Part shown: in pieces, positions 29,310 through 30,413 of the stretch
How the letters are laid out: every line of letters begins with the position of its first letter
How positions within the stretch are numbered: position 1 is the stretch's first letter
DNA from: an uncultured Pelagibacteraceae bacterium
GTDB taxonomy: Bacteria > Pseudomonadota > Alphaproteobacteria > Pelagibacterales > Pelagibacteraceae
Length of the DNA: 34,150 nucleotides
Direction of reading: 5' to 3'
Assembly (NCBI GenBank): GCA_902632515.1
Contig: CACPDA010000009.1
Location: 1-34,150, forward strand
Program-made: the position numbers and the translations under genes
The notes under the pieces: generated by a model
Told to the model about the DNA's origin: nothing
Seen by the model: only the letters and a program-made list of their open reading frames with translations
Database searches by the model: none

Positions 29310-29338
29310 TTGACATAACGTGTATAAAAAAATAAAAA
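29310..29338 (+). promoter_or_regulatory. Predicted strong promoter of the 25-aa basic protein gene
   Basis: A consensus -35 TTGACA at 29310-29315 is followed, after 17 nt, by TAAAAA at 29333-29338 as -10. The predicted transcription start is close to 29345. It is the best -35 match noticed in the window. Confidence 0.55.
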
Positions 29339-29349
29339 TAAGGTAATTG

Positions 29350-29366
29350 CGAATCATTATGATTCG
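29350..29366. promoter_or_regulatory. Perfect 8-1-8 dyad in the leader of the basic protein gene
   Basis: CGAATCAT, centre T at 29358, ATGATTCG. It starts a few bases after the predicted transcription start, so it could be a 5' mRNA hairpin (six-pair stem with a short loop) or an operator. The G/C content of the arms makes chance less likely than for the dyad before the HNH gene. Confidence 0.5.
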
Positions 29367-29390
29367 TTTAACTAATAAAGGGAGCTAAAG

Positions 29391-29468
29391 ATGGCTAAAA
29401 GAAGAAAAAAAGCAAAGAAGGCTAAGAAAAAAGCTAAGAAAAAAGCTAAAAAAAGAAGAAGAAGATAG
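29391..29468 (+). CDS. 25-aa polybasic (Lys/Arg/Ala) microprotein
   Basis: A complete 25-codon gene beginning MAKRRKKAKKAKKKAKKK and ending in four arginines. It contains 13 Lys, 6 Arg, 5 Ala and the initiator Met: no acidic or aromatic residue. Expression signals are unusually complete: a TTGACA promoter, a dyad in the leader, the Shine-Dalgarno GGGAG at 29380-29384 six bases before the ATG, and a strong terminator 22 bp after the stop. Most other starts in the window have no Shine-Dalgarno match. The composition suggests binding to nucleic acid or the ribosome, like histone H1 tails, protamines or the 25-aa eukaryotic/archaeal ribosomal protein eL41, but this is compositional similarity only and I recognise no family. 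It faces carD, whose product also has a lysine-rich tail. Confidence 0.75.
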   Translation: MAKRRKKAKKAKKKAKKKAKKRRRR

Positions 29469-29490
29469 TAACTTAGTATTCTTTATTAAA

Positions 29491-29533
29491 AACGCTTCTC
29501 ATAACGCTTTATGTGTGAGAGGCGTTTTTTTTT
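29491..29533 (+). terminator. Rho-independent terminator after the basic protein gene
   Basis: AACGCTTCTCA (29491-29501) pairs with TGAGAGGCGTT (29516-29526) as an 11-bp stem with one G-U pair, a 14-nt loop, then nine T residues to 29533. It sits at the convergent end of carD, and the shorter T run on the other strand may give partial bidirectional termination. Confidence 0.9.
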
Positions 29534-30413
29534 ACCCTTCTATATTCTCTTCATTTTCAGGAATAGGTTCTTCTTCTGGTAAATCTGAACTTGTAGTTTT
29601 AGCTACTTGTGAAGCAGGTTTTAATTGATCATTAGTATTTCGTTTTAAAGCTTTATCTAGTTTTTTTTGAGTATCCTCTAATGATACATTTAATATAATT
29701 TTAAATTCAGTAAGAATTCTATCATAAGCTTTTTCAAATAACTGTCGTTCACTATATGATTGATCCACCATTAGATCATCACCTTTATTTAAATCTCTTA
29801 CAACTTCAGCTAATTCATAAATTTTACCTGATGATATTTTAGCCTCATATTCTTGAGCTCTTCTACTCCACATTGATCTTTTGATTTTAGGCTTACTTTT
29901 TAAAATAGAGATACATTTATTTACCTGATTGATTGTAGCTAATGGACGTAAATGTGATTGTTTGTTTACAGGAACCATACCATTAGCTTTATCTTTTTCA
30001 AATCTAATGACATATGTCTCTACGTCAATACCACCAATATTTATCTTCTTAAATTCATTTATTTGGCCGACACCATGTTTAGGATAAACAATAAAGTCTT
30101 TTATTTTATAATCTCTTTTTTCAGTTTCTTGCTTTTTTACTTTTTTAATTTCCGGTTTACTCTCAGCGTTTTTACTTATTCTTAAATTTTCAATTTTATT
30201 ATCAGAGGTTTTATCCTGAATTTTAGTAATTTTTTTTTTTGTGTTTTTTTTAATGTTTTTAGTTGAAATCTTAGTAGATTTTTTTGAGGTAATTTTTTTG
30301 GTCTTTATAGCTTTTTTTGCTACTTTCTTAACCTTTTGTTTTTTTAATTTTTTTTTAAACGTTTTCTTTAAAATATTTTTCAAACTTATTTTGCTCATTT
30401 TTATATTTTTCAT
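29532..30413 (-). CDS. carD: CarD/CdnL-family RNA polymerase-binding regulator with lysine-rich N-terminal tail
   Basis: The 293 residues have a CarD/CdnL module from about residue 100: [14 protein letters not shown] starts the RNA-polymerase interaction (Tudor-like) domain, [12 protein letters not shown] follows, and the helical DNA-binding part includes [15 protein letters not shown] and LAEVVRDLN. These proteins stabilise the open promoter complex at many promoters, including rRNA. Before it lies a ~100-residue extension with 29 Lys in the first 64 residues and no acidic residue before D67; most CdnL proteins are near 170 residues. The ATG at 30413 overlaps fdxA by 59 nt; a second ATG at 30398 shortens the product by five. 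A C-terminal acidic tail ([15 protein letters not shown]) follows. No ATG exists at the domain border. Confidence 0.88.

Follow-up and report, generated by a model that had tools for sequence, protein, structure and literature searches.

Why would a reading frame of 25 amino acids carry a promoter, a leader dyad, a strong Shine-Dalgarno (SD) sequence and a terminator of its own? The question is raised by a locus in a 34,150-nucleotide stretch of DNA from an uncultured Pelagibacteraceae bacterium (assembly GCA_902632515.1, contig CACPDA010000009.1, positions 1 to 34,150), hereafter called the window. A sequence-only reading of the window had taken these signals as a mark of an abundant protein. 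Because the SD and start codon proved to be the complement of a conserved, trans-encoded RNA, the signals indicate tight regulation and not simply abundance. We consider it probable that the locus encodes an H1-tail-like condenser of nucleic acid and that this protein would be repressed by a dedicated trans-antisense sRNA. The features discussed below are as follows.

29310..29338, + strand: promoter, TTGACA (29310-29315) and -10-like TAAAAA (29333-29338) at 17-nt spacing; from sequence and relatives
29350..29366, + strand: leader hairpin CGAATCA-TTA-TGATTCG near the predicted 5' end; from the dyad and stem conservation
29380..29398, + strand: SD, start codon and codons 2-3, complement of the RF01814 sRNA; from the Rfam match and complementarity
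29391..29468, + strand: polybasic microprotein, 25 aa; from translation, synteny with carD and synonymous excess
about 29490..29533, no strand assigned: terminator hairpin and T run between convergent genes; from sequence and a hairpin in the predicted fold
29532..30413, - strand: carD homologue with a lysine-rich N-terminus (Pfam CarD_C and CarD_TRCF_RID); syntenic neighbour, outside the switch

A conserved polybasic microprotein gene beside carD

The frame translates as MAKRRKKAKKAKKKAKKKAKKRRRR, with lysine or arginine at 19 of 25 positions and neither aspartate nor glutamate, as the sequence-only reading had it. Relatives were fetched through the convergent carD gene, and the best 80 of 370 loci were read; by their titles these belong to Pelagibacteraceae, Pelagibacterales or Candidatus Pelagibacter. 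Synteny in other SAR11 genomes, which had been proposed as a check, was found: a polybasic ORF lies just past carD on the opposite strand in 79 of the 80 loci, and in the exception (L019) the contig ends 161 nt beyond the carD match, where the ORF is expected.

Near-identical copies of the microORF differ by 24 synonymous and 11 non-synonymous events, the events being partly dependent on each other, and nine of the 11 are K/R swaps. The synonymous share expected is 0.186 (p 1.4e-10), or 0.333 with transitions only (p 2e-5). Since the changes among near-identical copies are mostly synonymous, the microORF is very probably translated. Counted more crudely, over entire length classes, there were 49 synonymous and 55 non-synonymous codon variants, the latter including 22 K/R swaps and 25 K/A exchanges that we ascribe to repeat units out of register. 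The open frame is retained across 71 distinct DNA sequences of 13 lengths, all of them chosen as open frames. Decay of the frame in related genomes had been named as the outcome that would speak against a protein; the frame is conserved and selected as coding. Judged from these sequences, the polybasic microprotein gene is real and conserved, carries signals for its own expression and is very probably translated.

No Pfam or NCBIfam family was found for the 25-aa (P0001), 35-aa or 58-aa forms, and the 85-aa form gave a single chance Pfam match (E 8.5); such searches are weak at 25 low-complexity residues. PDB sequences yielded no chain at E up to 10, likewise a weak test for 25 residues. Deeper clades were more informative about the kind of protein than family, homologue or PDB searches with the polybasic sequences. 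There, carD was found in 36 of 44 genomes, and a polybasic ORF adjoins it in 29 of the 30 loci read (none was found at L274). These deeper versions are 21-85 aa long, and the longer ones carry AKK and PAKK repeats and resemble H1 tails, while the shortest form in the sRNA clade has 20 aa (L099). The repetitive Lys/Ala(/Pro)-rich composition is that of histone H1-like and Hc1/Hc2 proteins, although no curated model of those families matched. We therefore call the microprotein H1-tail-like in composition; at best it would work like such proteins, and membership of their family is not implied.

Linkage to carD outside the order was considered and rejected: carD was present in 97 of 115 genomes of the class, and an AKK-type ORF stood beside it in none of 28 further loci read (L294-L321). 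Four of these loci (L294, L298, L305 and L317) have a Lys-rich frame of some kind, which at L294 looks like carD's own extension. The CarD homologue of the window itself has a long Lys-rich N-terminal extension, and the distant one at L294 seems to have Ala/Lys/Pro repeats.

Expression signals of the microORF

The signals listed by the sequence-only reading are present in the window and recur in its relatives. TTGACA occurs at a fixed spacing to ATAAAAATA in 78 of 80 loci (the window and 79 relatives), and the leaders of the remaining two (L055 and L061) are cut short by contig ends. Both arms of the dyad are found in all 80, around a spacer of 3 nt in 60, 2 nt in 18, 4 nt in one and 5 nt in one. 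A 6-bp leader stem is present in each of the 112 distinct leaders from the sRNA clade, and all 131 distinct leaders examined have a hairpin at this position, deep clades using other stems. The hairpin probably protects the 5' end of the mRNA. The dyad also contains a pair of GANTC motifs; GANTC is the CcrM site. Methylation was rejected as the main reason for the dyad, given the variable spacer, the other stems of deep clades and the clade B leaders shown (clade B is described below), which lose one GANTC yet keep the hairpin through G-U pairing.

GGGAG (29380-29384) stands six bases ahead of the ATG at 29391, and GGGAGCTAAAG is found in 80 of 80 loci. That so strong an SD is unusual here was also borne out, as none of the 24 window ORFs of 150 aa or more shows GGAG in the 16 nt before its start (placed at the first ATG). 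The longer motif GGGAGCTAAAGATG occurs once in the window; the shuffled mean was 0.12 with up to 2 mismatches allowed. Another small gene with a strong SD was seen at L186 and L190 (genomes G319 and G378), where a small hydrophobic protein (MKILSGLTGTINSLTSVVIALLGLGIVVSLLGG...) is preceded by GGGAGCTAAAT.

Downstream, the terminator hairpin and T run look bidirectional. The hairpin is flanked by A and T runs on either side and may serve the microORF and carD alike. Leader and terminator are both very strongly conserved.

The SD and start codon are complementary to the loop of RF01814

GGGAGCTAAAGATG is present in 115 of 197 genomes of the order, with exactly two sites in 94 and one site in 21; its reversed control gave zero matches. 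One of the two sites is the microORF, and the other lies antisense to the loop of RF01814, the 'rhtB sRNA'. The opposite strand of the second-site loci scored 71.9-88 bits with RF01814 in seven of seven cases (cut-off 55), and each of 30 further two-site genomes had one microORF and one sRNA. The ratio of one-site to two-site genomes (21:94) is, by our estimate, that expected at about 90% genome completeness; one of the 21 (G129) is accounted for by a G-U wobble, leaving 20 of 115.

The 13-nt loop of RF01814, AUCUUUAGCUCCC, is the complement of GGGAGCUAAAGAU (29380-29392), that is, of the SD and the AU of the AUG. In MAK-type genes, including the window gene, GGCUAA lengthens the complementarity past the loop, and in MPK-type genes codon 2 is a mismatch in this outer part. 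Both halves were available in 56 genomes: the 13-nt complement is perfect in 55 and has the one G-U in G129; most of the 56 pairs were fetched with the RBS motif, which favours perfect pairs and biases this rate. For the mRNA half, the loci fetched through carD do not depend on the RBS motif.

Within the window only two tRNAs exceeded Rfam cut-offs, and RF01814 gave no match above its cut-off there, only one of 20.5 bits on the window's own target site. The antisense sRNA lies outside the window and so was invisible to a reading of the window alone; judging by relatives, the window's own genome would contain the partner. A reading of the second motif copy as a paralogous microORF was rejected, since its frame is not conserved (3-28 aa) and the Rfam match is on the opposite strand. 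Carriage by phage was rejected too, the five IMG/VR matches to the 18-nt motif being other genes with a similar SD.

The match of RF01814 to the SD and start of the microORF is new, and the regulatory link is our main result. The two RNAs very probably form a real sRNA-mRNA pair, and the sequence comparisons strongly support the pairing.

The two halves of the pair changed in step

A variant motif, GGGAGCTAAA[ACT]ATG (the A-form), was found in 23 of 397 genomes. Ten of these (G162, G180, G208, G232, G238, G248, G273, G365, G374 and G380) have the A-form in both halves, so that the change is in step in 10 of 10 genomes of the A-form clade with both halves, and no mixed pair was seen. Three genomes have one half only, the mRNA in G307 and G354 and the sRNA in G353, with no second site within one mismatch, and the loci of the other ten matches were read and found to be unrelated sequence. 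A quick carD tree of 86 rows, with 39 of its 82 inner branches left open, explains the 12 A-form rows by a single change (SH-aLRT 86), so the co-change counts as one event. It hit the matching position with the matching base at two unlinked loci. Complementarity to a distant RBS that is kept by compensation, as expected of a trans-encoded antisense sRNA, is thus found here, with one compensatory event.

The strand of the RNA is indicated by its outer stem. Across 62 of 63 distinct copies (L360, which departs from the stem pattern, was left out), the antisense strand has 548 Watson-Crick, 10 G-U and 0 A-C cells. A sense-strand mimic was rejected on this basis, as all 10 non-Watson-Crick cells are G-U on the antisense strand and would otherwise be A-C. 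An extended -10-like motif, TGNTAN, occurs at most 35 nt upstream of the sRNA in 63 of 63 copies, although the pattern is a loose one, and in 22 of 63 the stem runs straight into poly-T. The rhtB gene starts 4-14 nt past the stem in 36 of 53 RF01814 loci, and 17 have another near gene or none (the class of L102, L105 and L192 was assigned by eye). The RNA may be a free-standing sRNA or one derived from a leader, and the hairpin may also affect translation of rhtB. The 4-14 nt between stem and rhtB leave little room for an SD of rhtB's own.

Pairing energy and accessibility of the target

The microORF start and a 19-nt stretch of the sRNA form a duplex of -33.7 kcal/mol, and the next of 29 listed window gene starts reaches -8.7. 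Away from gene starts, pairing of the loop reaches -22.5 kcal/mol in coding sequence. In a one-mismatch search of 16 genomes, the extra sites that were read were unrelated. Over 114 distinct transcripts, the 13-nt target is unpaired with a mean probability of 0.63 and is thus only partly open. In their minimum free energy (MFE) structures, the site forms a weak local hairpin in 94, pairs as SD with the 3' UTR in six, is otherwise paired in 13 and is open in one. The window's own MFE structure pairs the SD with the 3' UTR; an SD-occluding 3'-UTR element was rejected as a general feature at six of 114.

Proposed mechanism and alternatives

We propose that a short mRNA would run from a promoter-proximal 5' hairpin through a strong SD and the ORF to the terminator. 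An RNA of roughly 50 nt encoded in trans, or a leader-borne form of it (RF01814), would display the 13-nt hairpin loop, which would pair with its target, cover the SD and start codon and block ribosome entry; mRNA decay would probably follow. We infer the production of this RNA, its repressive effect, the timing of that effect and the ligand of the protein. To judge by its composition, the microprotein, which is H1-tail- or protamine-like, is most likely a binder and condenser of nucleic acid, DNA or RNA, with the nucleoid as the probable site, and a nucleoid role would be a good reading of that composition.

Of the functions offered by the sequence-only reading, a nucleoid-associated protein or polyanion condenser fits best, because the deeper relatives at the same place are longer, AKK/PAKK-repeat, H1-tail-like proteins. 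Its other suggestion, a small ribosomal protein, fared less well. A small ribosomal or RNA-bound structural protein (eL41- or bL37-like), its synthesis trimmed by the sRNA, would suit the size, the charge and the strong SD in all 79 relatives read, but we think it unlikely, as length varies from 20 to 85 aa in repeat units and no PDB chain, ribosomal or other, matched at E up to 10, weak as that search is for 25 residues. Very strong conservation of leader and terminator might instead mean that the short transcript is a functional RNA with an incidental frame. The synonymous excess, the K/R swaps, the retention of the frame in those 71 sequences of 13 lengths (picked as open frames), the invariant SD and the longer coding relatives in deeper clades make this highly improbable.

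Type I toxin-antitoxin pairs have an antisense RNA across the start of a very small ORF, and their toxins are mostly hydrophobic. An antisense RNA across the SD of a tiny ORF could make the present locus such a pair, with a polybasic peptide harmful when overmade and the sRNA as antitoxin; the histone-like HctA of Chlamydia, which according to PMC3469542 kills E. coli unless countered by its sRNA, offers a parallel. Unlike in type I pairs, however, the antisense gene neither overlaps nor adjoins its target (the genomes read have the two sites on separate contigs or at a long distance from each other), the product is hydrophilic and polybasic, and the gene is syntenic in 79 of 80 loci and retained in deeper clades where no matching sRNA was found. 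We regard a toxin-antitoxin function as very unlikely. It is also unlikely that RF01814 serves chiefly in cis, as a leader or terminator hairpin of rhtB, and that its match to the microORF start is a by-product. The close rhtB start at 36 of 53 loci and the poly-T after 22 of 63 stems would fit that account, and Meyer et al. 2009 (PMC2704228) discussed the element as a possible regulator or termination signal. Against it, the loop is retained at the 17 of 53 loci with another near gene or none, and a cis role accounts neither for the match over the 13-nt loop nor for the change in step with an unlinked gene.

Relation to known systems

The nearest counterpart to a condenser under a trans-antisense sRNA is found in Chlamydia, where the histone-like HctA is repressed by the trans-encoded sRNA IhtA, whose loop 1 covers 7 nt around the hctA AUG (as described in PMC4355289 and PMC3469542). 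Both systems have a basic protein, a start codon under the loop of a trans-encoded sRNA and lineage-wide conservation, repression in SAR11 being what we infer. According to the same sources, IhtA has 107 nt, three stem-loops, 7-nt pairing around the AUG and a second target, whereas the SAR11 RNA would cover 13 nt over the SD and the AU of AUG with one hairpin, and no second perfect site was found for it; the likeness drawn here is one of arrangement. Coxiella ScvA and Hq1 are described as small basic DNA-binding proteins that are more plentiful in the small-cell variant, whose nucleoid is condensed (PMC4766238). By this description they resemble the SAR11 microprotein in size and charge; unlike them, the SAR11 gene is conserved in marine genomes and has an antisense RNA.

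Meyer et al. 2009 (PMC2704228) describe the rhtB element as a hairpin with a bulge, known from about 1250 representatives and with rhtB or other genes beside it; whether it acts in regulation or as a termination signal is left open there, and that description names no target. By score, the SAR11 partner RNA is a member of this family. The term 'rhtB' is absent from the main text of the Red Sea TSS study (PMC5069720). In open-licence literature we found no paper mentioning 'rhtB sRNA' or 'RF01814' and nothing on a Pelagibacter histone-like lysine-rich protein, and the titles and abstract starts of papers on SAR11 or Pelagibacter nucleoid, histone, Hfq or sRNA held none on this pair. The present results propose a target for an RNA family of 2009 whose function stayed open, suggest a minimal counterpart to the chlamydial histone/sRNA switch and add a microprotein that no family model covers to what is known of SAR11, in which chromatin and post-transcriptional control are little known.

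Origin of the sRNA

In a sister clade, clade B, rhtB and a DUF2805-like gene lie close together, and the hairpin is missing from this interval, the usual place of the sRNA, in seven of seven readable loci (L387 and L389-L394; L388, L400 and L401 were left out of the count, their starts being misplaced). The clade B RBS reads GGGAGAAAAG or GGGAGATAAG; a search with it gave a microORF match in 12 of 20 genomes, and three genomes had a second match, differently spelled. The clade B interval showed weak complementarity to the local RBS, at -10.6 to -14.9 kcal/mol against -28.4 for the positive control. Among the 82 genomes without the exact motif, 80 were searched and two exceeded the RF01814 cut-off, both of the A-form. 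At the sensitivity of the searches used, no matching sRNA was found in deeper clades, and in G005 and G161 matches were no more frequent than with the reversed control. The lineage with the RBS GGGAGCUAAA[GA] was grouped at 99 on the carD tree. As the hairpin is absent in clade B and the RBS differs there, the sRNA was, most simply, gained in the GGGAGCUAAA[GA] lineage. The 19-nt match suggests that it may have arisen as an inverted copy of the microORF start.

No Hfq match was found in any of 12 Pelagibacterales genomes tested, 10 of them with the sRNA motif, the completeness of these genomes not being given. Two of two other Alphaproteobacteria did match, as did E. coli and Caulobacter among the controls. 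This suggests that a dedicated sRNA switch is possible through a long, perfect loop duplex in a lineage without detected Hfq. Tentatively, and with somewhat more doubt than belief, one may go further: the ocean's most abundant bacteria might set nucleoid compaction through a protamine-like microprotein of 20-35 aa, an H1-like protein in shrunken form, under a one-target, Hfq-independent hairpin sRNA. This sRNA would have been gained in the lineage where the RBS acquired its present shape, and the whole would be a minimal antisense switch that converged on the arrangement of Chlamydia IhtA/HctA.

In four leaders (L167, L168, L262 and L263) from deep clades in which the searches gave no matching sRNA, CTCC stands ~10 bases before the GGAG of the SD. 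From its sequence, it may mask the SD in cis and is possibly an older form of the same control.
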